This document shows, in pieces, positions 1,900-50,844 of a stretch of DNA of 64,000 nt. Source of the DNA: Arachis hypogaea (lineage: Eukaryota; Streptophyta; Magnoliopsida; Fabales; Fabaceae); the NCBI RefSeq assembly GCF_003086295.3, contig NC_092038.1, positions 97,247,837 to 97,311,836 of the forward strand. Reading direction: 5' to 3'. The number at the start of each line of letters is the position of its first letter. Positions within the stretch are counted from its first letter, which is position 1. A program made the position numbers and the translations under genes. The notes under the pieces were generated by a model. That model was not told the DNA's origin. It made no database searches and worked only from the letters and a program-made list of their open reading frames with translations.

Positions 1900-3512
1900 T
1901 GATGAGCGGATATTTTGTACGCTTTTTGGGGGTAATTTCATGTAGATTTTAGCATGTTTTAGTTAGTTTTTAGTAGAATAATATTAGTTTTTAGGCAAAA
2001 ATCATATTTCTGGACTTTACTATGAGTTTGTGTGTTTTTCTGTGATTTCAGGTATTTTCTGACTGAAATTGAGGGAGCTGAGCAAAAATCTGACTTAGGC
2101 TGAAAAAGGACTGCTGATGCTGTTGGATCCTGACCTCCCTGCACTCGAAATGGATTTTCTGGAGCTACAGGAGTCCAATTGACGCGCTCTCAACGGCGTT
2201 GGAAAGTAGACATCCAGGGCTTTCCAGCAATATATAATAGTCCATACTTTGAGCGAGGATAGAGGACGTAACATGGCGTTAAACGCCAAGTTCATGCTGC
2301 TGTCTGGAGTTAAACGCCAGAAAAACGTCATTATCCGGAGTTGGACGCCCAAAACACGTCACAACCTGAAGTTTGACGCCAAGAAAGGCCTCCACACGTG
2401 AAAAGCTTTAGTCTCAGCCCCAGCACACACCAAGTGGGCCCCAGAAGTGGATTTCTGCACCAATTATCTTAGTTTATTCATTTCCTGTAAACCTAGGGTA
2501 CTAGTTTACTATTTAAACAACTTTTACAGACTTATCTTGTACCACATGACATTTTCAGATCTGAATTACATACTTTGTGACGGCATGAGTCTCTAAACTC
2601 CATTGTTGGGGGTGAGGAGCTCTGCAGCGTCTCGATGATTTAATACAATTCCTTTGTTTTCCATTCAAACACGCTTGTTCTTATCTAAGATGTTTATTCG
2701 CGCTTAACTGTGGAGAAGGTGATGATCCGTGACACTCATCACCTTCCTCAACCCATGAACGTGTGCCTGACAACCACCTCCATTCTACATCAGATTGAAT
2801 GAATATCTCTTAGATTCCCCAACAGAATCTTCGTGGTATAAGCCGGATTGATGGCGGCATTCATGAGAATCCGGAAAGTCTAAACCTTGTCTGTGGTATT
2901 CCGAGTAGGATTCCGGGATTGAATGACTGTGACGTGCTTCAAACTTTAACCTGCTGGGCGTTAGTGACAGACGCAAAAGAGTGATTCTATTCCAGTAGGA
3001 GCGGGAACCAACCGGTGATTAGCCGTACTGTGACAGAGTGCGTGCATAGTTTTCACTGCGAGGATGGGAAGTAGCCATTGACAACGGTGACACCCTACAT
3101 AGAGCTTGCCATGGAAGGAACCTGCGTGTGAGAAGAGGATTTCAAGGAAGAGTTGAAGTCAGAGGGCAAAGCATCTCCAAAACTCCAACATATTCCCCAG
3201 TACTGAAAATCAAGTAACTCTATTATTTTAACTTACAATTTTATGAAATTTGCAGTTTGGCTTTTTACAAATAAATCCAAATAATCCTATTGATATCCTG
3301 ACTAAGACTAATAAAATAAATATTGATTGCTTCAAACCAATAATCTCTGTGGATTCGACCCTTACTCACGTAAGGTATTACTTGGACGACCCAGTACACT
3401 TGCTGGTTAGTTGAACGGAATTGTGCTCTGAGCAAGTAATCAGTTAGTTAAATTAGTTCTCCTTGGCACATGCCAAGGAGTCATTAATTAAAGATCACAA
3501 TTTCGTCCACCA
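1900..3512 (+). repeat. 3' LTR of element A (about 1.6 kb)
   Basis: It begins TGATGAGCGG and ends at about 3512 with ...TTTCGTCCACCA, giving TG...CA termini. It is homologous to the LTRs at 20848-22576 (minus) and 32067-33777. A palindrome array occupies 2272-2383, and a TATA-like TATTTAAA lies at 2510-2517. The U5 side carries the phrase about an ACCCAGTACACTTGCTGGTT tail common to this LTR family. Confidence 0.8.
2272..2383 (+). repeat. Palindrome array, 31-bp phased (element A LTR)
   Basis: There are four copies of the GGCGTTAAACGCC-type palindrome, with core positions 2276, 2307, 2338 and 2369, each exactly 31 bp apart. The first is perfect; the others have one to three substitutions. 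The array ends about 129 bp before the TATA-like box at 2510. Confidence 0.85.
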
Positions 3513-5473: not shown

Positions 5474-7195
5474 GGATGATAAAGGACCTTGAGACAAGGC
5501 GCACTCTTTTTCCTGAAAAGATTTTTTAACGAGGCGCCAAGCCAAGACCTATAAATCACCCGACTTAGGAAATTAACCCCCCGCATGTGCATATTTTCAT
5601 TTTTTTAAATAAAATATGTTTAGATCTTCTACAAATGCTCAAGTCGCATTATTTTGAAACATTCATTGTCCGATTATAAAACTACAGATTGACAAAAAGT
5701 GAAAATCAAATTCACTGCGCGATCGCGATAAAGGCCAAAGTTGAAAACCAAATTCATTAAAAGGTCGACCAAACGAGGGTTAAAACCCAAACTCTACAAA
5801 ATCGGCAAAGATAAAAACAGAATAATGTAAGAAGTTATAGAAAGTGATCCATAGAAAGGACCTGACGAGGTCCTAATAAAATGGATTGCTATAAAATAAC
5901 TTAAAGACTGGCCGGCATAAAGAAGTCGGACCAGTCACAATAACCTAAGTTATTAGTAAAGCCCTGGAAAGAGGTCTGGCCAGCCCTATAAAAGAGGATT
6001 ACTATAACTTAGAAGAGCCCGACATGATGAAGTCGAACTCCCACAAATAAGTCACAAAGGTAATCCCTGAAAGAGACCTGAACAAGGTCCAAGAAAGAGG
6101 ATTACCAAGTAACCCGACAGGGACCGACATGTCAAAGTCGGCCCAAAATATAAAGTTACAAAGATAATCCCTGAAAGAGACCTGAACAAGGTTCAAGAAA
6201 GAGGATTACCAAGTAACTCGATAGGGACCGACATGACAAAGTCGGCCCAAAATATAAAGTTACAAAGATAATCCCTGAAAGAGACCTAAACAAGGTCCAA
6301 GAAAGAGGATTACCAAGTAACTCGACCGGGACCGACATGACAAAGTCGGCCCAAAATATAAAGTTACAAAGATAATCCCTGAAAGAGACCTGAACAAGGT
6401 CTAAGAAAGAGGATTACCAAGTAAATCGACAAGGACCGTCATGACAAAGTCGGCTCAAAATATAAAGTTACAAAGATAATCCCTGAAAGAGACCTGAACA
6501 AGGTCCAGGAAAGAGGATTACCAAGTAACTCAACCGGGACTGACATGACAAAGTCAGCCCAAAATATAAAGTTACAAAGATAATCCATGAAAGAGACCTG
6601 AACAAGGTCCATGAAAGAGGATTACCAAGTAACTCGACAGGGCCCGACATGACAAAGTCGGCCTAAAATATAAAGTTACAAAGGTAATCCCTGAAAGAGA
6701 CCTGAACAAAGGTCCAAGAAAGAGGATTACAAAGTAACTCGACGTGGCCCGGCGAGACGAAGCCGGCCCGGAACATAACTCTACAAAAGTAACCCCTAAA
6801 AGAGGGTCACTAACAACTCTTTGGACAAAATCAACGTAACAAAATCTGCAACCACAGCAAACCAAAGGACAAAACAAATTGCTAAAAATAGCATCAAAGA
6901 AATCAAGCCAATCCAGAAAGATCAGTCAAAGGAAAAGTTCTAAAACACTACCAAGACCTAGAAAAGTTACTAAGCCAAGTGCAAGCAAGCCTAACATAAA
7001 AACTGCTAGTTAAGATAAAGGCAAACTTCAGAGGCCACCAGAAGCAACCCCAAAAGTTCGGAAACTACTCTTTTTTAATAAAGTTGCTAAACAAAGCAAC
7101 TAAAAGGGTATCAACAATCATCAAAATATCATTTACAAAATAAAGCGTTTTAAAAGCCCACAAGCCGGGCTATCTACAACGAGCAAGAAGAAAAT
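5474..7195 (+). repeat. 3' untranslated region with seven 104-bp tandem repeats (element B)
   Basis: The phrase AATCCCTGAAAGAGACCTGA recurs, with units starting at 6061, 6165, 6269, 6373, 6477, 6581 and 6685, every interval exactly 104 bp. Divergent half-units flank the array at about 5940 and 6788. The open frames on the minus strand here only reflect the repeat. The stretches 5474-5930 and 6800-7195 hold no gene that I can see. Tat-lineage elements are known for variable, tandem-repeat-rich 3' regions. Confidence 0.9.
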
Positions 7196-13410: not shown

Positions 13411-14855
13411 TCTTCTTTTTAAGTATTTGTGTAAATATCCCGGTTTGTGGGCTTTTGAACTGTTTTATTGTTTTGTTTAACTGCTAATGCTTTTTAGTTG
13501 CCTGCCTGGCAACTTTTACTTTGAAAAACAAAAGTAGCTTTCTGAGGTAGATTTTGGTGGCCTCTTGAAGCTTTATTATACTATGATTTTATTGCGCTTT
13601 AACATGGTATCTCTTCTGGTTTCTGAGAGTGTTGGAATCTTGCTGCTTGACCTCTTTGGATTGCTTTTGTACTTATTGTTTGTAACTTGGATCCTTTGAG
13701 GCCGTGACTGTATGGGTCCGACTTGTTTCTCGGTTTGCTCGCTTTTGCTTGTATTTTTAGCGCCCCATAACCGATTTCTTTGTGTTGATCCCCTTCTAAG
13801 TTATTTTTGTAATCCTCTTTCTTGGTCTTTTGTTAGGTCTCTTTCAGGGATTACTTTTATAACTTGTATTGTAGGAGACCGACTTGGTTAGGTCGATCTC
13901 TTCTAAGTTATTTTTGTAATCCTCTTTCTTGGACCTTTGTTAGGTCTCTTTCAGGGATTACTTTTATAACTTGTCTTGTAGGAGACCGACTTCGTTAGGT
14001 CGACCTCTTCTGAGTTATTTTTGTAATCCTCTTTCTTGGACCTTTGTTAGGTCTCTTTCAGGGATTACTTTTATAACTTGTCTTGTAGGAGACCGACTTC
14101 GTTAGGTCGATCTCTTTTAAGTTATTTTGTGGACCTTTGTTAGGTCTCTTTCAGGGATTACTTTTATAACTTGTCTTGTAGGAGACTGACTTCGTTAGGT
14201 CGATCTCTTCTAAGTTATTTTTGTAATCCTCTTTCTTGGACCTTTGTCAGGTCTCTTTCAGGGATTACTTTTATAACTTGTCTTGTAGGAGACCGACTTC
14301 GTTAGGTCGATCTCTTCTAAGTTATAGCAATTCCTCTTTAATAGGGTTGGCCAGACCTCTTTCCAGGGATTTGCTGATAACTTGGGTTGACTTGGTCCGA
14401 TTTTTTTGTGTCGGCCACTCGTTTTAAGTTATTATATAGCAATCCATAAGACCTCGTCAGGTTCTTTTTGGGATCACTTTCGATAACTTATTGCATTATT
14501 CTATGTTCATCTTTGCCGATTTGTAGATGGTGGTTTCTGTCCTGGTTTGATCGTCCTTTAGGTGAATCGCGTTTTCACCTTTGTCGGATGATCATTCTTA
14601 TCGAGATTGTACAGTGAATCTGTTCTTTACTTTCTGTCGATCTGTTGCTTTATAATCGGACGATGAATGCTTCAGTTTAATGCGTCTCGAGAATTTGTAG
14701 AATATCTGAAATGTATTTTATTCAAAGAAAGTGCAAATATATACATGCGAGAGTTTTTCGTACCCTTAAGTCGGATTAAATCTTAGTCTTGATGCCTCAT
14801 TAAAAAACCATTTCAGGAAAAAGAGTGCATCTTGTGATGAGATCTTTTACCTTTC
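13411..14855 (-). repeat. 3' untranslated region with 107-bp tandem repeats (element C)
   Basis: GTAATCCTCTTTCTTGG-type units begin at 13809, 13916, 14023, 14129 (13 bp deleted inside) and 14223, so the period is 107 bp. They are the reverse complement of the 104-bp family in element B, with which they share the GGGATTACTTTTATAACTT block. Flanks 13411-13790 and 14340-14855 contain no gene that I recognise. Confidence 0.88.
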
Positions 14856-20847: not shown

Positions 20848-22576
20848 TGGTGAACGAAATTGTGATAACACTTTTCACAACTCCGCACAACTAACCAGTA
20901 AGTGCACTGGGTCATCCAAGTAATACCTTACGTGAGTAAGGGTAGATCCCATGGAGATTGATGGTTTAAAGCAAGCTATGGTCATCTTGTAAATCTCAGT
21001 CAAGCAAATTCAAATGGTTATGAGGTATTGATAATTAAAAGATAGATAAGACGGAAAATAACATAGAGATACTTATGTAATTCATTGGTGGGAATTTCAG
21101 ATAAGCGTTTGGAAATGCTTTGTTGCTTCTGAACCTCTGCTTTCCTATTGTCTTCATCCAATCATGCGTCCTCCCTTCCATGGTAAGCTGTATGATCCTC
21201 ACAGTGAAAATGGTCCGGCTATGGTCTATGTACGACTAATCAACTGTAAGATTTCTCGTCTCGGATGAAAAATACCAGGCACAGCTACCGCAGGGCTAAT
21301 CATCTGTTGGTTCTCACTTGTGTCGGAATAAGATCCATTGATCCTTTTGCACACTATCACTGCGCCCAACATTTGCGAGTTTGAAGCTCCTCACAGTCAT
21401 CCCTTCCGAGATCCTACTTGGAATACCACAGACAAGGTTTAGACTTTCCGGATCTAAAGAATGCTGTCTATTGATTCTAGCCTATACCACGAAGATCCTA
21501 ATCATGGGTCGGATGCTCTATTGTCAGGAGAGACGATGTGAATCCGTGGATTAGAGACCCAAGAGAGTATACTCCGGCTAGCGTCTAATGACTACATTGA
21601 ACATCATGTAGACCGCTTTGTGGATGTCAAGCACGTGGATCTTGGCTCGTGGATCTTGGCTAAGCGAGTACTAAAGATAGTGGGTGATTGTCACGGGTCA
21701 CCCCTTTAGTCTGACTTAACTGAATTAAGTACAAGAGTATATCTTGGAGAAGAAGTAGGCGTGAATTGAAGGAAAAACAATAGTACTTGCATTAATTCAT
21801 GAGGAATAGTAGAGCTCCTCCCTTTAATCTATGAGGTGTAGAAACTCCACTGTTGAAAATACATAAGAGAAAAAGGTCTAGGCATGGCTGAATGGCCAGC
21901 CTCCCCAAAGATGATCATAAAGCTCAAGGGTTCCCAAGAAGATCCTAATACAATAGTAAAAGTGCTATTTATACTAAACTAGTAAACTAGGTTTACAGAA
22001 AATGAGTAGATAGTACAGAAATCCACTTATGGGGCCCACTTGGTGTGTGCTTAGGCTGAGCTTTGAAGCTTTCACGTGCATAGGCCATCCTTGGAGTTAA
22101 ACGCCAGCTTGGGTGCCAGTTTGGGCATTTAACTCCAGCTTTGGTGCCAGTTCTGGCATTTTACGCCAGAAAAGGGTCTCTAGTGTGCGTTTGGACGCCA
22201 GTTTGGGCCATCAAGTCTCAGGCAAAGTATGGACTATTAAACATTGCTAGAAAGCCCAAGATGTTTACTTTCCAATGCAATTAAGAGTGCACCAATTACG
22301 CTTCTGCAGCTCTAGAAAATCCACTTCGAGTGCACAAAGGTCAGAATCCAGCAGCATTTGTAGTCCTTTCTCAGCCTTTGAATCAGATTTTTGCTCAGGT
22401 CCCTCAATTTCAGCCAAAAAATATCTAAAATCACAGAAAAATACACAAACTCATAGTAAAGTCTAGAAATGTGAATTTTGCATAAAAACTAACAAAAATA
22501 TACTAAAAAGTAACTAAAACATACTAGAAACTACGTAGAAATAATGCCAAAAAGCGTATAAATTATCCGCTCATCA
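20848..22576 (-). repeat. LTR of element D (about 1.73 kb)
   Basis: On the minus strand it begins TGATGAGCGGATAATTTATA and ends TTTCGTTCACCA. The TATA box is TATAAATAG (plus-strand 21965-21973). It shares the AAGCACACACCAAGTGGGCC block and the GTCATCCAAGTAATACC block with the LTRs of A and E. Confidence 0.85.
22091..22201 (-). repeat. Palindrome array, 31-bp phased (element D LTR)
   Basis: Degenerate GGCGTTTAACGCC-type palindromes have core positions at 22094, 22125, 22156 and 22187, all exactly 31 bp apart. The array ends about 117 bp upstream of the TATA box on the minus strand. Confidence 0.8.
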
Positions 22577-25370: not shown

Positions 25371-25960
25371 GCATGAGCATCTTCTCTATATTTTCTATTT
25401 ATTTTAGATACAAAAAAATTGAGTTTTAATTGAATTTTTAGTGTTTGGAACCTCTTAGGATGCTAATTTGATTTTCTTTGGTGTTTTAATTATTTCAGGT
25501 AAAGTTCGGATCAGTTTGGCAAAGTTAGTTTGGAAGAAAAGAGAAGAGTTGAAAGTTGCCAAGCTGGCGCTAAACACGGACTTGGGCATTTAGTGGTAGC
25601 AGCTCATAAGCACGTTAGAGCTCTCTGCCCACTAAGGCGCTAAACCTCAAGCATGGCGTTTAGCGTGAGCAGGCCAAAATGGATAGAAGCATTTCTGCCT
25701 CCTAGGACACTAAACGCCGAATTTGGCGTTTAACGCCAATGATCCGGATCACATTCTCACTAATGAAGCATCTTTAGTTGGACTTGAATTTTACTTATTC
25801 TATTTTATTTTATTTTAGTTGGTTTTAATTACAAACAAAATATTTTAGGTTTAGAATTTTTTATCTTATTTTAGTTTCAAATCAAATTAGGTTAGATATA
25901 AAAGGGAAAAGATTCAGTCCTTCTAAGGATCTTCTCTCTTCCTCACTATTAAAAATCCAA
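25371..25960 (+). repeat. Truncated LTR-like segment with palindromes and TATA box
   Basis: GCGCTAAAC or GCGTTTA-type motifs occur in pairs at 25567/25586, 25635/25654 and 25706/25726, that is 19, 19 and 20 bp apart, not 31. A strong TATA box, TATAAAAG, lies at 25897-25904, about 158 bp after the last palindrome. This is probably the U3-R end of a related but distinct LTR. No termini were found. Confidence 0.5.
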
Positions 25961-26048: not shown

Positions 26049-26192
26049 TGGGCATTCAAAATGCCCAGTGAAGAAGACAGACTGGCGTTTAAACGCCAGC
26101 CAGGGTGCCTGGCTGGGCGTTTAACGCCCAAAAGGGTAGAGTTTTGGGCGTTAAACGCCAGAATGTGCACCATTCTGGACGTTTAACGCCAG
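26049..26192 (+). repeat. Palindrome array in the gag leader (element E)
   Basis: A degenerate palindrome (TGGGCATTC ... ATGCCCA) at 26049 is followed by GGCGTTTAAACGCC-type copies with cores at 26085, 26117, 26148 and 26179 (32, 31 and 31 bp apart). The first strong copy is the perfect 18-mer CTGGCGTTTAAACGCCAG. Confidence 0.85.
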
Positions 26193-26878
26193 GATGGCAG
26201 AAGAGGGAAGATTTTGTTTTCAAATCAATTTTTTTTTCAAGTTTTCAAAGTTTTTCAAAATCAAATCTTTTTCAAATCATATCTTTTCAATCAAATCTTT
26301 TTCAAAATCAATTTCTTTCCATTTTTAAAAATACTTGCTATCAATTAATGATTTGATTCAACATTTCAAATATGTTGCCTTTTCTGTTGAGAAAGGTTTA
26401 ATGATTGAATCATATCTTTTCTTGATTAGGCAAGTTATTAATTTTTAAAATCAAATCCTTTTAAAATGTTTTTCAAATCATATCTTCTCAATCACATCTT
26501 TTTAAAACTAATCATATCTTCTTAACCATATCTTTTTCAAAATAGTTTTCAATCATATCTTTTTTAATTTCTAATTTCAAAATCTTTTTCAAAAATCACT
26601 TGATCTCTGTCCCACTCTTGGTTTTCGAAAATTAATTAGTGTTTTTCAAAATGTTTTCAAAATTTCTTACTTAATTTTCGAATACTACTTCCCTTCTTCT
26701 CACATCTTTCTATTTATGGACTAACACTATTCCTTAATGCACAATTCGAACTCCATCTCTCTTGATAAGTTCGAATTTTTTACCTCTGTCTTCCATTTTT
26801 CTTTTCCTCTGACACCTCAAGGAATCTCTATACTGTGACATAGAGGATTCCACATTTTCTTGTTGTCTTCTCTTTCTT
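26193..26878 (+). other. AT-rich gag leader with degenerate TCAAATCATATCTTTT repeats
   Basis: Variants of TCAAATCATATCTTTT or TCAAATCTTTTTCAAA recur about a dozen times over 26215-26600. There is no gene. The end, CTGTGACATAGAGGATTCC before the ATG at 26879, is familiar from peanut elements of this group. Confidence 0.6.
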
Positions 26879-29218
26879 ATGAGCAGGAGCAAGGACAAAA
26901 GCATTCTTGTTGAGGCTGATCCTGAACCTAAAAGGACCTTGAAGCGAAAGCTAAGAGAAGCTAAGGCACAACTCTCTGTAGAGGACCTAACAGAAATCTT
27001 CAAAGAAGAAGAACCCATGGCAGCCGAAAACAACAACAATGCCAACAATGCAAGGAAGGTGCTGGGTGACTTTACTGCACCTACTCCCGATTTCTATGGG
27101 AGAAGCATCTCTATCCCTGCCATTGGAGCAAACAACTTTGAGCTTAAGCCTCAATTAGTTTCTCTAATGCAACAGAATTGCAAGTTCCATGGACTTCCAT
27201 TGGAAGATCCTCATAAGTTTTTAGCTGAATTCTTGCAAATCTGTGACACTGTCAAGACTAATGGGGTTGACCCTGAGGTCTACAGACTTATGCTATTCCC
27301 TTTTGCTGTAAGAGACAGAGCTAGAACATGGTTGGACTCACAACCTAAAGAAAGCCTGAACTCTTGGGAAACGCTAGTCAATGCCTTCTTGGCAAAGTTC
27401 TTTCCACCTCAAAAATTGAGTAAGCTTATAGTGGAAGTCCAAACCTTCAGACAGAAGGAAGGAGAATCCCTCTATGAAGCTTGGGAAAGATACAAACAAT
27501 TAATCAGAAAGTGTCCCACTGATATGCTTTCTGAATGGAGCATCATAGGTATTTTCTATGATGGTCTCTCTGAACTATCCAAGATGTCTTTGGATAGCTC
27601 TGCTAGAGGATCTCTTCATCTGAAGAAGACGCCTACAGAAGCTCAAGAGCTGATTGAAATGGTTGCAAATAACCAATTCATGTACACTTCTGAAAGGAAT
27701 CCTGTGAACAATGGGACTAGTCAGAAGAAAGGAGTTCTTGAGATTGACACTCTGAATGCCATATTGGCTCAGAACAAAATATTGACTCAACAAGTCAATA
27801 TGATTTCTCAAAGTATGTCTGGAATGCAAAATGCACCAAGCAGTACTAAGGAAGCTTCATCTGAAGAAGAAGCTTATGATCCTGAGAACCCTTCAATGGA
27901 AGAGGTGAATTACATGGGAGAACCATATGGAAACACCTATAATCCTTCATGGAGAAATCATCCAAATTTCTCATGGAAGGATCAACAGAGACCTCAACAA
28001 GGTTTCAACAATAATAATGGTGGAAGAAACATGTTTAGCAATAGCAAGCCTTTTCCATCATCTTCTCAGCAACAGACAGAGAGTTCTAAGCAGAACCACT
28101 CTGACTTAGCAACCATGGTCTCTGATCTGATCAAAACCACTCAAAGTTTCATGACTGAAACAAGGTCCTCCATTAGAAATCTGGAGGCACAAGTGGGTCA
28201 GCTGAGCAAGAAAATTACTGAACTCCCTCCTAGTACTCTTCCAAGCAATACAGAAGAAAATCCAAAAGGAGAGTGCAAAGCCATCAACATGGCCGAATTT
28301 GGAAAGGAAAGAGAGGCAGTGAACGCCACTGAGGAAGACCTCAGTGGACGTCCACTGGCCTCCAATGAGTTCCCCAATGAGGAACCATGGGAATCTGAGG
28401 CTCAAAATGAGACCATAGAGATTCCATTGAACTTACTTCTGCCATTCATGAGCTCTGATGAGTATTCTTCCTCTGAAGAGGATGAGTATGTCACTGAAGA
28501 GCAAGTTGCTAAATACCTTGGAGCAATCATGAAGCTAAATGACAAGTTATTTGGAAATGAGACTTGGGAGGATGAACCCCCTTTGCTCACCAAAGAATTG
28601 GATGACTTGTCTAGGCAGAAATTACCTCAAAAGAGACAGGATCCTGGGAAGTTTTCAATACCTTGTACCATAGGCACCATGACCTTCAAGAAGGCCTTGT
28701 GTGACTTAGGGTCAAGTGTAAACCTCATGCCTCTCTCTATAATGGAGAAGCTAAGGATCTTTGAGGTGCAAGCTGCAAAAATCTCACTAGAGATGGCAGA
28801 CAACTCAAGAAAACAAGCTTATGGACTTGTAGAGGATGTTCTGGTAAAGGTTGAAGACCATTACATCCCTGCTGATTTCATAGTCCTAGAGACTAGGAAG
28901 TGCATGGATGAATCTATTATCCTTGGCAGACCCTTCCTAGCCACAGCAAAGGCTGTGATTGATGTTGATAGAGGAGAATTGATCATTCAAGTGAATAAAG
29001 AATCCTTGGTGTTTAAAGCTCAAGGATATCCCTCCGTCACCATGGAGAGGAAGCATGAAGAGCTTCTCTCAAAACAGAGTCAAACAGAGCCCCCACAGTC
29101 AAACTCTAAGTTTGGTGTTGGAAGGCCACAACCAAACTCTAAGTTTGGTGTTGAACCCCCACATTCAAACTCTAAGTTTGGTGTTGGGAGGTTCCAACAT
29201 TGCTCTGAGCACCTGTGA
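26879..29218 (+). CDS. gag: Gag-protease polyprotein of element E, intact (779 residues)
   Basis: The start MSRSKDKS matches the start position of the gags at 50845 and 55924. The gag core (about residues 85-270) has NNFELKPQL, RTWLDSQPKESL, FLAKFFPPQK, QTFRQKEGESLYEAWERYK. The conserved YNPSWRNHPNFSW follows at about residue 360, but the usual CCHC zinc knuckle is absent. An acidic stretch precedes the aspartic protease (about 595-720), whose active site is CDLGSSVNLMP and which ends in IILGRPFLATA. The C-terminus carries three 11-codon repeats of NSKFGV. There is no stop or frameshift. Without RT or integrase, movement would depend on another element. Confidence 0.92.
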   Translation: MSRSKDKSILVEADPEPKRTLKRKLREAKAQLSVEDLTEIFKEEEPMAAENNNNANNARKVLGDFTAPTPDFYGRSISIPAIGANNFELKPQLVSLMQQNCKFHGLPLEDPHKFLAEFLQICDTVKTNGVDPEVYRLMLFPFAVRDRARTWLDSQPKESLNSWETLVNAFLAKFFPPQKLSKLIVEVQTFRQKEGESLYEAWERYKQLIRKCPTDMLSEWSIIGIFYDGLSELSKMSLDSSARGSLHLKKTPTEAQELIEMVANNQFMYTSERNPVNNGTSQKKGVLEIDTLNAILAQNKILTQQVNMISQSMSGMQNAPSSTKEASSEEEAYDPENPSMEEVNYMGEPYGNTYNPSWRNHPNFSWKDQQRPQQGFNNNNGGRNMFSNSKPFPSSSQQQTESSKQNHSDLATMVSDLIKTTQSFMTETRSSIRNLEAQVGQLSKKITELPPSTLPSNTEENPKGECKAINMAEFGKEREAVNATEEDLSGRPLASNEFPNEEPWESEAQNETIEIPLNLLLPFMSSDEYSSSEEDEYVTEEQVAKYLGAIMKLNDKLFGNETWEDEPPLLTKELDDLSRQKLPQKRQDPGKFSIPCTIGTMTFKKALCDLGSSVNLMPLSIMEKLRIFEVQAAKISLEMADNSRKQAYGLVEDVLVKVEDHYIPADFIVLETRKCMDESIILGRPFLATAKAVIDVDRGELIIQVNKESLVFKAQGYPSVTMERKHEELLSKQSQTEPPQSNSKFGVGRPQPNSKFGVEPPHSNSKFGVGRFQHCSEHL

Positions 29219-29422: not shown

Positions 29423-29593
29423 CTGGCGTTTAAACGCCAGTGAGGCTAGCAGATGGGCGTTTAACGCCCAGTCTGGCACCATTCTGGGCGTTTAACGCCA
29501 GAAAGAGGCACCAGACTTGCGTTAAACGCCAGAAAAGGGCAAGCTCTTGGCGTTAAACGCCAGAAATGGGCACTAGCCCGGCGTTTAACGCCA
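29423..29593 (+). repeat. Palindrome array, six copies exactly 31 bp apart (element E, between gag and ORF2)
   Basis: Core GCG positions are 29426, 29457, 29488, 29519, 29550 and 29581, all intervals 31 bp. The first copy is a perfect 18-bp palindrome, CTGGCGTTTAAACGCCAG; most others are GGCGTTTAACGCC or GGCGTTAAACGCC. The spacers differ in sequence, but their length is fixed. Confidence 0.93.
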
Positions 29594-29822
29594 AAATTGG
29601 CTCAAAACGCATTTTTGCATGACATTTGGTGCAGGGATGACTTTTCCTTGACACCTAAGGATCTGTGGACCCCACAGGATCCCCACCTACCCTACCACTC
29701 TCTCTCTTCTTCACCACTCACATCCATCCTTCATAAAACCCCACCTACCTCACCCTTCAAATTCAAACCACTTCACCTCCCAAACCCACCCATACATGAC
29801 CGAACCATGAGCCCCCCACTCC

Positions 29823-30024
29823 TATATAAACCCATCTTCACTCCTTCATTTTCACACAACCTAAACACCACTTTTCCCCTTTTTTTTGGCCGAACACAAA
29901 GCCATTCCCTTCTTTCTCATTTCTTCTTCTTCTACTCTCTTCTTTCTTCTTTTGCTCGAGGACGAGCAAACCTTTTAAGTTTGGTGTGGTAAAAGCATTG
30001 CTTTTTATTTTTCCATAACCATTT
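29823..30024 (+). promoter_or_regulatory. Candidate internal promoter and leader of ORF2 (element E)
   Basis: TATATAAA at 29823-29830 lies 195 bp before the ORF2 ATG. The leader is rich in C and T. At 29951-29970 there is the hairpin TTTGCTCG-AGGA-CGAGCAAA, followed by TTTTAAGTTTGGTGT, the same pair of motifs found before the 3' LTR. The palindrome array ends 230 bp upstream of the TATA box. Confidence 0.55.
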
Positions 30025-31149
30025 ATGGCATCCAAGGCCGGAGAAACCTCTAGAAAGAGGAAAAGGAAGGCAAAAGCTTCCACCTCCGAGTCATGGGAGA
30101 TGGAGAGATTCATCTCAAGGGTGCATCAAGACCACTTCTATGAAGTTGTGGCCTTGAAGAAGGTGATCCCCGAGGTCCCTTTCAAACTCAAAAAGAGTGA
30201 ATATCCGGAGATCCGACATGAGATCCGAAGAAGAGGTTGGGAAGTTCTTACCAACCCCATTCAACAAGTCAGAATTTTAATGGTTCAAGAGTTCTATGCC
30301 AATGCATGGATCACCAAGAACCATGATCAAAGTGTGAACCCGGATCCAAAGAATTGGCTTACTATGGTTCGGGGGAAATACTTGGATTTTAGTCCAGAAA
30401 ATGTAAGGTTGGCATTCAACTTGCCCATGATGCAAGGAGATGAACATCCTTACACTAGAAGGGTCAACTTTGATCAAAGGTTGGACCAAGTCCTCACAGT
30501 CATATGTGAAGAGGGTGCCCAATGGAAGAGAGATTCAAGAGGGAAGCCGGTTCAATTGAGAAGGCATGACCTCAAACCCGTGGCTAGAGGATGGTTAGAG
30601 TTTATCCAACGCTCAATCATTCCCACTAGCAACCGGTCTGAAGTTACTATAGACCGGGCTATCATGATTCATAGCATCATGATTGGAGAAGAAATAGAAG
30701 TTCATGAGGTTATATCCCAAGAACTTTATAAGGTGGCAGACAAGTCCTCTACCTTGGCAAGGTTAGCCTTTCCTCATCTCATTTGTCACCTCTATTATTC
30801 AGTTAGAGTTGACATAGAGGGAGACATCACCATTGATGAGGACAAGCCCATCACTAAGAAGAGGATGGAGCACACAAGAGATCCCACTCATCATGAGATC
30901 CTTGAGATTCCTCAAGGGATGCACTTTCCTCCACAAAACTATTGGGAGCAACTAAACACCTCCCTAGGAGAATTGAGTTCCAACATGGGACAACTAAGGG
31001 TGGAGCACCAAGAACACTCCATCCTCCTCCATGAAATTAGAGAAGATCAAAGAATCATGAGAGAGGAGCAACAAAGACAAGGAAGAGACATTGAGGAGCT
31101 CAAGCACTCCATAGGATCTTCAAGAGGAAGAACAAGCCGCCATCACTAA
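30025..31149 (+). CDS. ORF2 accessory protein of element E, intact (374 residues)
   Basis: The N-terminus is basic and nuclear-signal-like (SRKRKRKAKAS). The central domain has MVQEFYANAW, TMVRGKYLDFSPENVRLAFNLP, LKPVARGWLEF and PTSNRSEVTIDRAIMIH, as in the plant 'putative transposon protein' family (Pfam Transposase_32-like, from memory). The last 90 residues form a coiled coil (LSSNMGQLRVEHQEHSILL). There is no signal peptide or membrane segment, so I see no support for an envelope protein. The homologue in element A is at 2-859. The frame is intact. The function is unknown. Confidence 0.85.
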   Translation: MASKAGETSRKRKRKAKASTSESWEMERFISRVHQDHFYEVVALKKVIPEVPFKLKKSEYPEIRHEIRRRGWEVLTNPIQQVRILMVQEFYANAWITKNHDQSVNPDPKNWLTMVRGKYLDFSPENVRLAFNLPMMQGDEHPYTRRVNFDQRLDQVLTVICEEGAQWKRDSRGKPVQLRRHDLKPVARGWLEFIQRSIIPTSNRSEVTIDRAIMIHSIMIGEEIEVHEVISQELYKVADKSSTLARLAFPHLICHLYYSVRVDIEGDITIDEDKPITKKRMEHTRDPTHHEILEIPQGMHFPPQNYWEQLNTSLGELSSNMGQLRVEHQEHSILLHEIREDQRIMREEQQRQGRDIEELKHSIGSSRGRTSRHH

Positions 31150-32028
31150 GGTGGACCCGTTCTTTAATTTCCTTGTTCTTTATTTTTCTGTTTTTCGAAT
31201 TTTATGCTTATGTTTATCTATGTTTGTGTCTTGTGATCATTAGTGTCTTAGTGTCTATGCCTTAAAGTTATGAATGTCCTATGAATCCATCACCTTTCTT
31301 GAATGAAAAATGGTCTTAATTGAAAAAGAGAAGAATTGCATGAATTTTGAATTTTATAACAGTTTAATTATTTTGATGTGGTGGCAATATTTTTGTTTTC
31401 TGAATGTATGCTTAAACAGTGCATATGTCTTTTGAATTTGTGGTTCATGAATATTAGCTCTTGAAAGAATGATGAAAAAGGAGAAATGTTACTGAGGATC
31501 TGAAAAATCATAAAAATGATTCTTGAAGCAAGAAAAAGCAGTGAATACAAAAAAAAAATATTTCGAAAAAAAAAGAAGAAAGAAAAAGAAAGAGAAAAAG
31601 AAAGAAAAAGAAAGAAATAAAGTTGTGATCCAAGGCAAAAAGAGTGTGCTTAAGAACCTTGGACACCTCTAGTTGGGGACTCTAGCAAAGCTGAGTCACA
31701 ATCTGAAAAGGTTCACCCAATTATGTGTCTGTGGCATGTATGTATCCGGTGGTAATACTGGAAGACAGAGTGCTTTGGGCCACGGCCAAAACTCAATAAG
31801 TAGCTGTATTCAAGAATCATCATACTTAACTAGGAGAATCAATGACACTATCTGGATTCTAAGTGCCTAAAGAAGCCAATCATTCTGAATTTCAAAGGAT
31901 AGAGTGAGATGCCAAAACTGTTCAGAGGCAAAAAGCTAAAAGCCCCGCTCATCTAATTAATAATGATCTTCATAGATGATTTTGGAATTCATTGCATATT
32001 CTCTTCTTTTAATCTTATTTGATTTTCA
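31150..32028 (+). other. Conserved 3' non-coding region with purine tract (element E)
   Basis: The region is clearly alignable with 860-1861 of element A. It contains an A/G-only tract at about 31550-31617 and the 12-mer ATGTGTCTGTGG at 31723-31734. No gene is present. Confidence 0.7.
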
Positions 32029-32066
32029 GTTGCTTGAGGACAAGCAACAATTTAAGTTTGGTGTTG
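32029..32066 (+). promoter_or_regulatory. Hairpin plus PPT region before the 3' LTR (element E)
   Basis: GTTGCTTG-AGGA-CAAGCAAC is at 32029-32048, then TTTAAGTTTGGTGTTG up to the LTR start at 32067. It is identical in form to 1862-1899. Confidence 0.65.
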
Positions 32067-33777
32067 TGATGAGCGGATAATTTGTACGGTTTTTGGCATT
32101 GTTTTTAGTATGTTTTTAGTATGATCTAGTTAGTTTTTAGTATATTTTTATTAGTTTTTAGTTAAAATTCACTTTTCTGGACTTTACTATGAGTTTGTGT
32201 ATTTTTCTGTGATTTCAGGTATTTTCTGGCTGAAATTGAGGGACCTGAGCAAAAATCTGATTCAGAGACTAAAAAGGACTGCAGATGCTGTTGGATTCTG
32301 ACCTCCCTGCACTCGAAGTGGATTTTCTGGAGCTACAGAAGCCCAATTGGCGCGCTCGCAACGGCGTTGGAAAGTAGACATCCTGGGCTTTCCAGAAATA
32401 TATGATAGTCCATACTTTGCCCAAGATTTGATGGCCCAAATTGGCGTTCAAAATCACCTTCAGATTTTCCAGCGTTAAACGCCGGAACTGGCACAAGAAT
32501 GGGAGTTAAACGCCCAAACTGGCACCAAAACTGGCGTTTAACTCCAAGAAGAGTCTCTACATGAAAATGTTTCATTGCTCAGCCCAAGCACACACCAAGT
32601 GGGCCCGGAAGTGGATTTTTATGTCATTTACTCATCTCTGTAAACCTTAGGCTACTAGTTCTCTATAAGTAGGACCTTTTACTATTGTATTATAGAGCTT
32701 TTGATCATGTTTTTATGATTGAACCCTCTTTGGGAGGCTGGCCATTCGGCCATGCCTAGACCTTATTCTTATGTATTTTCAACGGTGGAGTTTCTACACA
32801 CCATAGATTAAGGTGTGGAGCTCTGCTGTACCTCGAGTATTAATGCAATTACTATTGTTCTTCTATTCAATTCCGCTTGTTCTTGTTCTAAGATATCACT
32901 TGTTCTTCAACTTGATGAATGTGATGATCCGTGACACTCATCATCATTCTCACCTATGAACGTGTGACTGACAACCACCTCCGTTCTACCTTAGATTGGG
33001 TGAATATCTCTTGGATTCCTGATACACGATGCATGGTTGATCGCCTGACAACCGAGCGCTCGCCTGACAACCGAGCCAGCCATTCCGTGAGATCAGAGTC
33101 TTCGTGGTATAGGCTAGAACTGATGGCGGCATTCAAGAGAATCCGGAAGGTCTAACCTTGTCTGTGGTATTCTGAGTAGGATTCAATGATTGAATGACTG
33201 TGACGAGCTTCAAACTCCTGAAGGCGGGGCGTTAGTGACAGACGCAAAAGAATCATTGGATTCTATTCCGACCTGATTGAGAACCGACAAATGGATAGCC
33301 GTGCCGTGACAGGGTGCGTTGAACATTTCCACTGAGAGGAGGGGAGGTAGCCACTGACAACGGTGAAACCCTTGCATAAGCTTGCCATGGAAAGGAGTAA
33401 GAAGGATTGGATGAAGATAGTAGGAAAGCAGAGAGACGGAAGGGACCAAGCATCTTCATACGCTTATCTGAAATTCCCACCAATGAATTGCATAAGTATC
33501 TCTATCTTTATCTTTATGTTTTATTCGTATATCACCCATATCCATTTGAGTTTGCCTGACTAAGATTTACAAGGTGACCATAGCTTGCTTCATACCAACA
33601 ATCTCTGTGGGATCGACCCTTACTCGCGTAAGGTTTATTACTTGGACGACCCAGTACACTTGCTGGTTAGTTGTGCGAAGTTGTGTTTATGCCATGGTAT
33701 TGAACACCAAGTTTTTGGATTCATTACCGGGGATTATTTGATTTGTGAAAAGTATTGATCACAATTTCGCGCTATCA
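32067..33777 (+). repeat. 3' LTR of element E (about 1.7 kb)
   Basis: It begins TGATGAGCGGATAATTTG and ends near ATTTCGCGCTATCA. Palindrome cores are at 32444, 32472, 32503 and 32534 (28, 31 and 31 bp), and TATAAGTAG at 32664. Unlike the LTRs of A and D, it carries an inserted segment near 33690-33745 that looks like an LTR end plus a decayed PBS. Confidence 0.8.
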
Positions 33778-35100
33778 GAGACCAATCTTAGAGGCAACCA
33801 AACTTCAATAATTCTCAGGGCAATTTTAATCAGAATAATTTCAATAATCGTCAGTTTCAGGCCTCTCAGCCACAGCAAGCACCCTCTCAGCCTCAAAATA
33901 TTCCTGACTTAGTCTCTATAGTTGCAGAACTCTCCAAGAACACTCATAGTTTCATGTAGGAGACCAGAGCCTCACTTCAGAAATTGTAAATACAAGTGAG
34001 TGGGTTGAGTAAGTAAGTACCTGAGAGGCCCCCTAACACTCTTCCTAGTGACACAGTGCCTAATCCAAGAGAAGAGTGCAAGGCCATCAAAGTGGCAAGT
34101 GAACCAGTGACAGAGGAGTAAGTACAAGTTGCTAAGGAATCAGAGGAAATAGAAGCTCTAGAAAGGAGACGGAACCATAGTACATGCCCCACCCAAGGCA
34201 CCTGAGCACAAGGCGAATATGCCATACCCTCAAAAACTCCAAAAGGAGACCAAGGACAAGGAGTTTTCAAAGTTCTTGAAAATTTTTAGAAAGTTGCAAA
34301 TCAATATTCCTTTTGTTGAGGTTTTGGAGAAAATGCCCCCTATGTCAAGTTCATGAAAGGCTTACTCTCTAAGAAGAAGACCTTAAAGAAAGATGAAACA
34401 GTGGTCCTGACCAAGGAATGGAGTGAAATAATTCAGAAAAAATTACCAAGGAAGATGCCAGATTATGGAGCTTTCAGATTGCATGCACTATTAGGAGTAT
34501 CACCTTTAACAAAGCCCTATGTGATCTTGGTACAAGTATTGATTTAATGCCCTTGTCTGTGATGAAAAAGCTACAAATTTAAGAGGCATAACCCACAAAG
34601 ATAGCCTTACAAATGGCAGACAAGTCTCTGAAATATGCACATAGAATAGTAAAAAATGTCTTGGCTAAGGTTAGAATATTCTTTCCCCTGCAGATTTTGT
34701 GATTCTTGACTTGAGAAAGGATAAAAATAACTCTATAATCCTGGGAATACCATTCCTAGCTACCGGGAGAGCTCTGATCAATATAGAGAAAGGGGAATTG
34801 GTTCTGAGGATGCATGACGATTACTTGGTATTCAAGGTTTTTTTACCCTTACATCACTCTGATGAGGGAGGTACTTACATGAAGAGTGAGCTCACTAACC
34901 TAAGACTCCAAGGATTCCTGATTGAAGTAAAGCAGAGTTCACAATTCAAACCTTTTTTGGTGGGAACCAATACAATTCTACCCGACATCAAATATAAGTT
35001 TGGTGTTGGGTGTGCATCATCCACCAAGGAGGAAGGTCCCAGGAAGAAGGTACCAAAGGGATGTAGGTATAAGAAGATGCCCACTGATGATTTTTTATAA
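33778..35100 (+). pseudogene. gag: gag C-terminal and protease remnant, Athila-like
   Basis: 33780-34010 holds a Q/N-rich gag segment and a L.K..HSFM block similar to 28130-28160. 34490-35100 is an aspartic protease remnant ([11 protein letters not shown], then a frameshift, then SIILGIPFLATGRALI). Stops occur at 33957 and 34581, and several frameshifts are present. The end has TATAAGTTTGGTGTTGGG at 34990, coding for KFGVG as in element E. It is older than its neighbours. Confidence 0.8.
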
Positions 35101-43101: not shown

Positions 43102-44632
43102 TCTCTTTCTAGATATTTATGTAGTTGGCCCGGCTTGTGGGCTTTTTTAAAACTTTGTTTGTTTTGCTGACGGTTTCTAGTTGCTTGTTTTAGCAACTTT
43201 ATTTTGAAAAACAAAAAGTAGCTCGCTATCTTTAGCAGGTGTTGATGGCCGCTGTTCCGGGGCCTTATAACTTTTGCGGAGTAATAGAGGTAGTTTTTTG
43301 TCTTGGCATCTTTTCAGTTTTCTACTGATGTTTGAAATCTTGTATCTCGACCTCCTCGGATTGCTTTGTTTTATTGTTTGTAGCTTGGATCCTTTGAGGT
43401 TGTGACCTATGGGTCCAACTTGTTTCTTGGTGGTTCTGCTGATCCCCCTTTCAGTTATTTCTGTAATCCTCTTTTTTGGACCTTTGTCAGGTCTCTTTTG
43501 GGGATTACTTTTATCACTTATTTGTAGGAGATCAACTTTGTTAGGTCAACCTCTTTCCAAGTTATTTTTGTAATCCTCTTTCTAGGACCTTTGTCAGGTC
43601 TCTTTCAGGGATTACTTTGATAACTTTTTAGTGGTAGGAGTCCGACTTGGTTATGTCGGTCTCCTTTAAGTTATTTTTTGTAGTCCTCTTTCTTGGATCT
43701 TTGTCAGATCTCTTTCAGGGACTACTTGTATAACTTTTTAGTGATAGGAGTCCGACTTGGTTATGTCGGTCTCCTTTAAGTTATTTTTTGTAGTCCTCTT
43801 TCTTGGATCTTTGTCAGATCTCTTTCAGGGGCTACTTGTATAACTTTATAGTGATAGGAGTCCGACTTGGTTATGTCGGTCTCCTTTAAGTTATATTTTG
43901 TAGTCCTCTTTGTTGGATCTTTGTCAGATCTCTTTCAGGGCTACTTGTATAACTTTATAGTGATAGGAGTCCGACTTGGTTATGTCGGTCTCCTTTAAGT
44001 TATTTTTTGTAGTCCTCTTTGTTGGATCTTTGTCAGATCTTTTTCAGGGACTACATGTATAACTTTTTGTTTTGGGCTGACTTTGTTATGTCAGGCCCTT
44101 CTAAGTTAAAGTAATCCTCTTTAATAGGGTTGGCCAGACCTCTTTCCAGGGTTTACTTATAACTTGGGTTGACTTGGTTCATTCGACCAGTCCTTAAGTT
44201 ATTATTTTAGCGATCCGTAAGACCTCGTCAGGTTCATTTTTAGATCACTTTTGATAACTTCTTACATTATTCTGTGTTCATCTTCGCCGATTTGTAGAAA
44301 GTGGTTGGCATCTTTAGATCGTCCTTTGGGTGAATCGCGTTTTCACCTTTATCGGACGATTTATCTTTATCGTGGTCGTGCAGTGAAATTGTTTTTCACT
44401 TTCTGCTGACCTGTCGCTTTATAATCAGACGATGAATACTTCAGATTAATGCATCTTGGATTCTTTGTAGAATATCTAAATAGACTTTATTCAAAGAAAA
44501 ATTGCAAATATATACATGTGGGAATTTTCTTATCCCTTTAAGTCGGGCAAGACCTAGATCTCAACATGGTGCCTCATTAAAAAACATTTTCAGGAAAAAG
44601 AGCACATCCACTAGTGAGACCCGTTGCCTTTT
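43102..44632 (-). repeat. 3' untranslated region with 107- to 110-bp tandem repeats (element G)
   Basis: Units begin at 43463, 43570, 43680, 43790, 43900 and 44009, so intervals are 107, 110, 110, 110 and 109 bp. They belong to the same family as those in B and C, but the unit differs (TAGTCCTC in place of TAATCCTC, TTATGTCGGTCTCC). The rest of the stretch holds no gene. Confidence 0.88.
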
Positions 44633-48296: not shown

Positions 48297-50557
48297 TGAT
48301 GCCAGGGCATTTTGGCCAGTTTCACTGACCTTTTCTTTACTGTTTTTAGGTATTTTCATGCATTTTCTTAGGACATAAGTTAGTTTTGGGCAGATATTCA
48401 CTCAGACCTTGATTCAAGCATACATTGTGCATTTTACATTATTTCATGAGGATTTTGCATGATTTTAATGACAAAATTGTATATTGCATTACCCATGACG
48501 TGTATTAGAACTTTGATGCACTCTATTGCTTGATTTCAGGACCAAAGGGAGCAAGGAATGGGAGGTAACTTGCGAAGTTAAGGAGAAAAGTGATTGCCAA
48601 AAACACTCTCAAAAGCCATCAATGCCTACGTTAAAGAGTCATGTTAACTAAGTTAACGTGAACTCTAACGTGGAGAAGAGAAGTTGAGCCAACGTTAGTG
48701 ACACTTAACATTGTCACTAACGTTGGCAATTGCTCACAAATGGCCACGTTAGAAGCCACGTTAACCTAGTTAACGTGGCCTCTAATGTTAAAGGGGGAAG
48801 AGAAGCCAACGTTAGTGACACTCAACATTGTCACTAACGTTGGCCTAAGGTGCAAAGAGCCACGTTAACTCCCACATTAACTTGGTTAACGTGGGAGCTA
48901 ACGTAAGAGATGGAGAGTTGTCGACAACGTTAGTGACACTCAACATTGTCACTAACGTTGGAGCAACCACACAAACCCCAAGAGCCACATTAACCTCCAC
49001 GTTAACTTGGTTAACGTGGAAGCCAACGATGAGGAATGAAGAATGATCCAACGTTAGTGACACTCAACATTGTCACTAACGTTGGGATGGCTAAGAATGG
49101 CCCCGTTAGAAGCCACGTTAACCTAGTTAACGTGGACTCTAACGTGAGACCTAGGGGCACACTTGAACGTTAGTGACAATGTTGAGTGTCACTAACGTTC
49201 TCGAAGGTTGGCAAAAGCCACGTTAGAAGCCACGTTAACCTAGTTAACGTGAGCTATAACGTGAAGCAAGAAGGGGCACACTTGAATGTTAGTGACAATG
49301 TTGAGTGTCACTAACGTTCTCGAAGGCTAGCAAGGCAAAGTTAAAAGCCACGTTAACCCAGTTAACGTGGGCTCTAACGTGAGGCAAAGGGGTGCATGGC
49401 AACGTTAGTGACAATGTTAAGTGTCACTAACGTTCTCGAACTTGTATTTTCACTAATTGTTAAACACCCCTAACGTCTTGAGCTAAAGTCTCTGCCCACT
49501 TCACACTTTCTCTCTGCAAGTAAGCCAAGCCCAATTGAAGAAAGGAACTGCTTCAAGCTCAAAGATCCAGAGGCCCAAGACTTGAAGAGCTAACTAGAAG
49601 CTGAGAAGAGTAGTATATATAGGAGTAGTTTTGAAATAGAGAAGAGCTTTTTGGGGGAGAGGAGCTAGGAAAGAGAACTACTCTTTGTATTTACTTTCTT
49701 TACAATTCTAGTTTTATCATGTATTCTCCATCTTTGATTTTGATTTCTAGAGCTATGAACAACTAAACCCCTTTCATTGGGTTAGGGAGCTCTGTTGTAA
49801 TTTGATGGATCAATACTAATTTTCTTATTCTTCTTCTATCTTTCCTTTTGATTTTACTTGAAAGCCTTCGATCTTCATCCAATTGGATAGTGATCTTGGA
49901 AAAGAAGCTATTCAAACATGGATCTCTTCGGATCCTTGAAAGAGGAATGAAGAGATTAGTTAGAAATGTTTTCTCATGCTGGACCAAATTGAGTGTAGAT
50001 GGGTATGTGGCTATAACCCTCTAAGCATTTGATTTGGGAAGTGCATGTGGTATAATCAGTGACCACACTTCATCTCTTCTCATGAGCAATTGACCAAGGA
50101 ATTGGCTATTGATCAAGATTTGAGAGATTGAATTGCAAGAAATTGTGATTCAATCACTTAAGATTGCCAAGGAGATCAATGAGTGCATTGATTGAGGAAG
50201 AGATGAAAATGAAATTGATCCGGAGAATGCAACATCTCCTAAGCCCAATGAACTCCCCATTTATGATCTTACCCATTCTCTTTATTTTCTGCAGTTTACT
50301 TTTATGAGCAATTCCCCCATTCCCATTTACAATTCTGCTATTTACTTTCAGTCATTTACTTTCCTGCTATTTTAATTTCTGCAATTATCAACTCTATTCA
50401 TGGATTCGCTCAACTAGATCATTCCTCTAATTAAAGTTGCTTGATCAATCAATCCCTGTGGGATTCGACCTCACTCTATTGTGAGTTTTTACTTGACGAC
50501 AAATTCGGTACACTTGCTGAATGGGAATTTGTTGAGAGACAAGTTTTACCTTGATCA
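48297..50557 (+). repeat. 5' LTR of element H (2.26 kb)
   Basis: It begins TGATGCCAGGGC and ends ACCTTGATCA, seven bases before the PBS. It contains alternating palindromes at 48640-49434 and the TATA box TATATATAGG at 49614. U5 shows the TCAATCCCTGTGGGATTCGA phrase shared with element I. Confidence 0.88.
48640..49434 (+). repeat. Two alternating palindromes, seven cycles of about 118 bp (element H LTR)
   Basis: Palindrome 1 is AACGTTAGTGACA ... TGTCACTAACGTT, starting at 48691, 48808, 48926, 49050, 49166, 49285 and 49401. Palindrome 2 is CCACGTTAAC ... GTTAACGTGG, lying between them. The centre of palindrome 1 reads CTCAACAT or CTTAACAT in the first four copies and the reverse complement ATGTTGAG or ATGTTAAG in the last three. 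Confidence 0.92.
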
Positions 50558-50563
50558 AGTTTA

Positions 50564-50581
50564 TGGCGCCGTTGCCGGGGA
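50564..50581 (+). promoter_or_regulatory. Primer-binding site, tRNA-Asp type (element H)
   Basis: A perfect TGGCGCCGTTGCCGGGGA, six bases after the LTR. Confidence 0.93.
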
Positions 50582-50844
50582 TTGATTGTGCATCGACAAT
50601 GATTACATTAGAGGATCACTAGATTGAGCATTTGTATTTTGTTTGATTTAATTTTCTGTTTGGTTAATTTGCTTTTCGTCTTAGTTTAAGTCTTCCCCTC
50701 CCCTGTTTCTTAGTTTTTCTTTGCTATTTACAATTCAGTTCACTAACCCACTAACTGTTTGATATATTGCATCACTGACACTAACAAGTAATTCTAACAA
50801 GATACTTTCTGCATTGCTTTTCTTGCTTGTACTCTGTTGGTTGT

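Follow-up and report, generated by a model that had tools for sequence, protein, structure and literature searches.

We analyzed a 64-kb window of Arachis hypogaea (peanut) DNA, 64,000 nucleotides to whose positions all coordinates refer, and identified in it five arrays of short palindromes that recur with a period of 31 bp in the long terminal repeats (LTRs), the leader and the internal region of retrotransposons of the FIDEL family. We consider it somewhat probable, judging by sequence, that these arrays are cis-regulatory platforms of the family, in which dyad sites for a dimeric protein would be placed near promoters. The palindromes are better preserved than the spacers between them in two of three comparisons of LTR copies, and the arrays recur near TATA-like sites both in the LTRs and between two open reading frames (ORFs).

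Palindrome arrays with a 31-bp period

The reconstructed set consists of five regular arrays and one looser cluster.

2275..2380, plus strand, four-site U3 array in FIDEL LTR copy A
22093..22198, minus strand, four-site U3 array in FIDEL LTR copy C, its most distal site a relic
25566..25739, plus strand, looser GGCGCTAAAC/GGCGTTTAACGCC cluster with irregular spacing, upstream of TATAAA at 25897
26084..26190, plus strand, leader array, four palindromes, the spacers themselves inverted repeats
29425..29592, plus strand, internal array of six palindromes spaced at 31-bp steps, in the interval between the gag ORF and ORF2
32443..32545, plus strand, four-site U3 array in FIDEL LTR copy B, with a first step of 28 bp

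The original prediction placed GGCGTTTAACGCC-type palindromes 31 bp apart, and each of the positions it had cited proved to hold the motif, intact or decayed. The cores from 29426 to 29581 follow one another at steps of 31, 31, 31, 31 and 31, and the period is indeed common to the three LTRs and the leader (31, 31, 31 at 2276-2369; 31, 31, 31 at 22094-22187; 28, 31, 31 at 32444-32534; 32, 31, 31 at 26085-26179). Counted from these core positions, 15 of the 17 adjacent steps are exactly 31 bp and the remaining two are 28 and 32 bp. When the same numbers of palindromes were placed randomly in the same spans (20,000 trials), exact 31-bp steps numbered 0.4 on average and 4 at most. The 13-mer GGCGTTTAACGCC, with up to two mismatches, has 32 matches on both strands of the window, against 0.40 expected from 100 dinucleotide shuffles. 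A scan blind to the motif (13-bp dyads with at least five of six complementary pairs and at least five G+C) returned 209 dyads, for which the top lag is 31 (9 pairs) and the second 62 (5 pairs); Tandem Repeats Finder (TRF) calls period 31 at 22100, 29425 and 29488.

The dyad consensus is GGCGTTWAACGCC, 13-15 bp in length. The first sites of the internal and leader arrays (29425 and 26084) are even palindromes of 14 bp, with centre-based steps of 30.5 and 31.5. Among the LTR sites, 32443 and 2368 are decayed (3/12 mismatches) and 22186 is a relic, and a perfect site at 25725 sits outside the regular arrays, inside the looser cluster. Two palindromes 16-20 bp apart had no match in the viral contig and genome contig collections and the internal region had none among plasmids; these searches thus revealed no further copy of the internal array. 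Period 31 (and about 16) is also called by TRF in AT-rich arrays that lack the palindrome, at 55364-55494 and 62061-62195.

The arrays in the FIDEL element

The attribution to FIDEL made in the original prediction agrees with published primers and amplicon sizes. Seven of the eight published primers lie in the window within three mismatches (three of them exactly), compared with a best of 4-7 mismatches for 200 shuffled primers; primer 496F has no match in the window (best 5 mismatches). The published 183-bp FIDEL412 amplicon corresponds exactly to 32362-32544 in LTR B, spans the array and has one primer inside it. The FIDEL274 amplicon, published as 161 bp, measures 161 bp in copies A and B (one primer has 4 mismatches in B), and FIDEL197, published as 167 bp, measures 163 and 168 bp here. 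ORF2 is tied to FIDEL by the position of FIDEL274, which in each of copies A and B falls in the internal region, between ORF2 and the LTR. The three LTR copies begin with TGATGAGCGGATA and are alignable over about 1.6 kb.

1900..3450, plus strand, FIDEL LTR copy A, right end approximate
2510, TATA-like site of LTR A, TATTTAAA
20845..22576, minus strand, FIDEL LTR copy C, far end approximate
21973, minus strand, TATA-like site of LTR C, TATAAATA
26813..29218, plus strand, ORF with gag (PF03732), delimited stop to stop, 5' of the internal array
29822..29830, plus strand, internal TATA CTATATAAA, 230 bp after the internal array
30025..31149, plus strand, ORF2, 374 amino acids, PF20167
32067..33705, plus strand, FIDEL LTR copy B, starting with TGATGAGCGGATA, right end approximate
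32664..32671, plus strand, TATAAGTA, TATA-like site 119 bp downstream of the array in LTR B

In all three LTRs the distance from the array end to the TATA-like site is 119-130 bp. The internal array lies outside any LTR, between the gag ORF and ORF2, and ORF2 starts at the first ATG after the internal TATA. Words of the CTATATAAA type occur twice on the plus strand of the window and never on the minus strand; since looser TATA words are common (32 on the plus strand), the internal TATA at 29822 is suggestive only as a sign of a promoter. Further upstream, the looser cluster is followed by TATAAA and then by the leader array. The gag ORF matches PF03732, with a sub-threshold match to Ty3_capsid, and a scan of three ORFs, from gag to the LTR, turned up no reverse transcriptase. 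The order of gag, ORF2 and LTR B suggests that they form one element, of which only the ORF2-to-LTR part is seen in two copies.

The region 31560-33790 comprises the FIDEL 3' internal region, LTR B and a degenerate stretch resembling a primer-binding site, as in LTR-internal-LTR chains. This last stretch lies at 33712, 3' of LTR B, and is a putative primer-binding site. The CTCGAGGACGAGCAAACCTTTTAAGTTTGGTGTGG stretch at 29955-29989, before ORF2, resembles the stretches immediately 5' of the LTRs (32034-32066 and 1867-1899), so an LTR-adjacent block recurs within the element. A 33-bp tandem repeat in three copies (29093-29191) encodes the C-terminal end of the gag ORF.

Expression of the family has been reported: the four FIDEL amplicons were up under stress, except FIDEL274 in fungus samples, and FIDEL412, measured in cDNA, had the highest drought ratio, 1.74-fold (PMC3496627). 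As this amplicon crosses the array, the array stretch is present in RNA. That study concerns the same family by primers and amplicon sizes, and its accessible text holds nothing on palindromes.

Preservation of the palindromes and the proposed function

Spacer statistics were computed on 20 units, each composed of a palindrome and the 18 bases 3' of it, including the five stretches after the last palindromes and omitting the first sites at 29425 and 32443, each followed by a spacer that is not of this length. Information content per column is 1.46 bits in the palindromes and 0.51 in the spacers. Between LTR copies A and B, identity is 40/52 (0.77) in palindromes, 15/36 (0.42) in spacers and 189/226 (0.84) in flanks; between copies A and C it is 36/52 (0.69), 25/54 (0.46) and 180/227 (0.79). 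The excess of palindrome over spacer identity was reached by 5 of 5000 permutations for A-B and by 76 of 5000 for A-C. The CpG dinucleotides of the arrays are likewise concentrated in the palindromes (34 of 39; 118 per kb, versus 17 in spacers and 22 in the window), and the CpG observed/expected ratio is 0.08 in the 600 bp before the internal array and 1.01 within it.

The original prediction interpreted the arrays as a platform for a dimeric protein and not as simple slippage. The better preservation of the palindromes fits the first part of this claim, a repeated dyad site; the exclusion of a repeat origin does not hold as stated, because the spacers are related to each other and the B-C comparison lacks the difference.

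We infer protein binding, its dimeric form, an enhancer effect and use of the internal promoter. In the proposed mechanism, the 13-15-bp dyad GGCGTTWAACGCC, repeated at a period of 31 bp, would be the site of a protein binding as a dimer, and several dyads in a row near each promoter would raise local occupancy. The U3 arrays of the LTRs would drive the whole element, and the internal array before the TATA at 29822 would drive ORF2. The arrays probably originated as tandem repeats of a 31-bp unit, in which spacers drifted and dyads were kept in elements that stayed mobile.

ORF2 as a candidate binding protein

One candidate for the dimeric protein is encoded by the element itself. The ORF2 protein has a basic N-terminus and, in the predicted model, a long C-terminal helix; the predicted shape of its domain resembles VANC21, represented by a DNA-bound structure, the sole candidate fold match. 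By sequence, ORF2 hits only PF20167 at E-values up to 1 and thus shows no DUF1985, and across 32 ORF2 relatives DUF1985 is absent from the matches listed (25 of 32 families). The named relatives of ORF2 come from Arachis and Stylosanthes first, then from Glycine and Trifolium. None was confirmed in the viral and genome contig collections, where 3 and 20 pattern stretches, respectively, failed tblastn.

VANDAL elements are DNA transposons that encode VANC and carry a short motif in tandem repeats of their noncoding DNA (PMC5735166, PMC10398659). In the parts of these accounts available, FIDEL resembles them in anatomy only as regards the tandem-repeat motif in noncoding DNA, together with an encoded protein whose predicted fold may be similar. 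It differs in that VANDAL is a DNA transposon, its motif is not described there as palindromic and VANC has no sequence-level match to ORF2. Based on the fold model, it is conceivable, at roughly half the likelihood that we give to a regulatory platform in general, that FIDEL recognizes itself: its own PF20167 ORF2 protein would bind the arrays of dyads in the LTR, the leader and the DNA between the ORFs, and would lift silencing or activate the element in the way that VANC21 acts on VANDAL21 DNA transposons. We tentatively picture a VANC21-fold protein that may dimerize via its C-terminal helix, read its own arrays and shield or activate the element.

Tandem-repeat ancestry and evidence against a regulatory role

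Several observations weigh against the arrays being regulatory platforms. In the B-C comparison, palindromes (38/52) are not above spacers (28/36), with flanks at 183/226. Flanks are conserved at least as well as palindromes in all three comparisons, a non-significant difference (830, 449 and 703 of 5000 permutations). Of the four LTR stretches measured, the array as a whole shows the lowest conservation in A-B (0.63, versus 0.86 just upstream) and likewise in A-C (0.58, versus 0.81 upstream); in B-C it stands at 0.79 and is not the lowest, the stretch 3' of the array being at 0.70. The array of copy C has a CpG observed/expected ratio of only 0.58. The induction of FIDEL is modest, and the FIDEL412 RNA is not proof that the array drives transcription because U3 is also present at the 3' end of the element RNA. 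Finally, the basis is one window with five arrays and three LTRs of a single family.

The relatedness of the spacers weighs in the same direction. They had been described as varying in sequence, which is correct insofar as identity within arrays is only 0.47, and the repeats are therefore not recent identical duplicates, the condition named beforehand as fatal to the platform. The spacers nevertheless share significant similarity and a weak dyad about their own centre. Pairwise identity among the spacers of the 20 units is 0.38, versus 0.26 after letter shuffling (standard deviation 0.007; reached by 0 of 2000 shuffles); the 15 internal spacers alone give 0.39 versus 0.26, and their middle positions 5-15 give 0.365 versus 0.253. 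The middles of LTR spacers from different slots and different copies show no clear likeness (0.279 versus 0.260; 620 of 2000 shuffles reach it). GGCA stands at spacer position 7 or 8 in 8 of the 15 internal spacers, all of them outside the leader array and LTR A. About the spacer centre, 51 of 143 pairs are complementary, versus 32.7 expected (standard deviation 4.8; 0 of 3000 shuffles; 16 spacers), and the best of three axes gives 68 versus 46.5. By this best-axis count the dyad is strongest in the leader array (19 versus 9.9; 3 spacers) and weaker in the internal array (20 versus 14.4; 5 spacers) and the LTR arrays (29 versus 22.2; 8 spacers). The unit is thus a tandem repeat of 31 bp that contains two dyads about 15.5 bp apart, one strong and one weak, and, the spacers being related, at least part of the periodicity goes back to an ancestor with tandem repeats.

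The constancy of spacer length, also put forward in the original prediction, is real in that 15 of 17 steps are 31 bp; by itself it is not evidence of constraint. Outside the array the same LTRs have 0.014-0.071 gaps per substitution, and under a star model the probability that at least 15 of 17 lengths stay unchanged is 0.54, 0.098, 0.014 and <0.001 at ratios of 0.014, 0.03, 0.045 and 0.071. With an outcome that depends so much on the assumed gap rate, the argument from length was dropped. Nearby, at 48621-49440, the steps in an array of long AACGTT/GTTAAC palindromes range from 116 to 124, so array lengths are able to drift in this region.

Since the spacers are related, a passive, decayed minisatellite explains much of the pattern: an ancestral 31-bp duplication would have spread by template switching between elements and drifted without a role. 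A low indel rate could have preserved its length, and the lack of palindrome preference in B-C agrees with it. We nonetheless regard it as unlikely, a little more so than self-recognition by ORF2, because the palindromes are far better kept in A-B and A-C, the design is repeated in LTR, leader and inter-ORF DNA with CpG kept in the palindromes, and simple decay gives no account of why the palindrome is the conserved part.

RNA folding and nucleosome phasing

The arrays could also act as hairpins in RNA or single-stranded DNA, as stems that serve dimerization or packaging of the element RNA, or by giving rise to small RNAs used in host silencing. All three array locations would be in genomic RNA, and the predicted folds are strong for the internal array (z score -9.1) and the leader array (z -8.9). 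A paper on maize Sireviruses reportedly deals with LTR palindromes and small RNAs. The LTR arrays fold at z -2.6 to -3.7, barely exceeding the array-free stretch 29600-29749 (z -2.75). In the leader array the spacers contribute pairing of their own in addition to that of the palindromes (z -4.4; 0 of 300 shuffles), but elsewhere this contribution is weak, being reached by 17-47 of 300 shuffles. Because spacer shuffling leaves a clear excess in the leader array only, the palindromes alone account for most of the folding of the internal and leader arrays. Among 120 dyad pair cells, taken from 20 palindromes with both 14-bp ones excluded, 25 are changed on one side and none on both. In this small sample, the lack of compensatory changes favours a DNA site over a maintained RNA stem. 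No Rfam family was found in the window. A hairpin function thus seems improbable, more so than passive decay.

Positioning of a nucleosome by dyads on one helical face fits the arithmetic (31 bp is 2.95 turns at 10.5 bp, and six cores span 155 bp) and is very improbable, as we know of no nucleosome signal of this dyad-array kind.

Similarity to known repeat designs

The closest design in print is, by analogy, the palindromic repeated motifs (RM) of Sireviruses. These elements have palindromic boxes in many copies, located upstream of the TATA and a few hundred bp into the LTR, with extra copies before a 3' ORF; the clusters are CpG-rich, a regulatory role was proposed and an internal ENV promoter suggested, and the authors reported the palindromic RM as Sirevirus-specific (PMC2829016, Bousios 2010). 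The peanut element also has clusters in the LTR before the TATA and before the 3' ORF and, if it is one element, carries 14 palindromic boxes from the leader to LTR B, compared with at least 8 per element for a Sirevirus-type RM array. The accessible text describes Ty1/copia elements with a mostly CGG-CCG core and gives no fixed 31-bp step, whereas FIDEL has a Ty3-type gag, GGC-GCC arms and a PF20167 ORF instead of ENV. Assignment to Sirevirus was rejected on the core (GGC-GCC arms) and on the superfamily (PF03732 gag), the design being alike.

Repeated boxes in U3 are known from other plant LTR elements. Tnt1 belongs to Ty1/copia, and its BII box is 31 bp long. BII is a repeated box in the U3, said to bind defence-induced factors, and a variant with an extra repeat is described (PMC3316501, PMC2923131); going by these descriptions, the FIDEL arrays may be likened to it. 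We found no match for 31-bp tandem repeats in the U3 of plant retrotransposons in the open-licence literature, where an earlier mention is possible, and a search with five sequence strings gave none on peanut by title among the matches listed.

Other repeats in the window

The array at 48621-49440 is a tandem array of long palindromes (CCACGTTAACctaGTTAACGTGG and AACGTTAGTGACA...TGTCACTAACGTT) upstream of TGGCGCC at 50564 and a gag ORF at 50785. It is of like design in a different element, and one stretch of it folds at z -8.6. Tandem arrays of 104-110 bp occur in other Ty3 elements (6049-6743, 13793-14325 and 43447-44068), the latter two flanked by a reverse transcriptase ORF on the minus strand and a PF04195 ORF on the plus strand. 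A 2-kb repeat (53671-55710 and 60372-62411) is present in direct orientation, 6.7 kb apart, with 97.6% identity.

Significance for plant retrotransposons

The palindromic repeat design of this Ty3-type peanut family extends a supposedly Sirevirus-specific feature, even without a VANC-like role of ORF2. The function of accessory ORFs of plant LTR elements is described as unknown in the available texts (PMC11728184, PMC7264820), and whether Tork and Athila ORFs modulate their own epigenetic state is, according to a 2026 sunflower paper, still to be investigated (PMC12844716). The window pairs an accessory ORF of VANC21-like predicted fold with dyad arrays in the control regions of the same element, which makes a sequence-specific test straightforward. 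If self-recognition is true, tandem arrays would mark the targets of PF20167/Athila-type proteins, and among retrotransposons the PF20167/Athila-type accessory ORFs carried by plant Ty3 elements would correspond to VANC.
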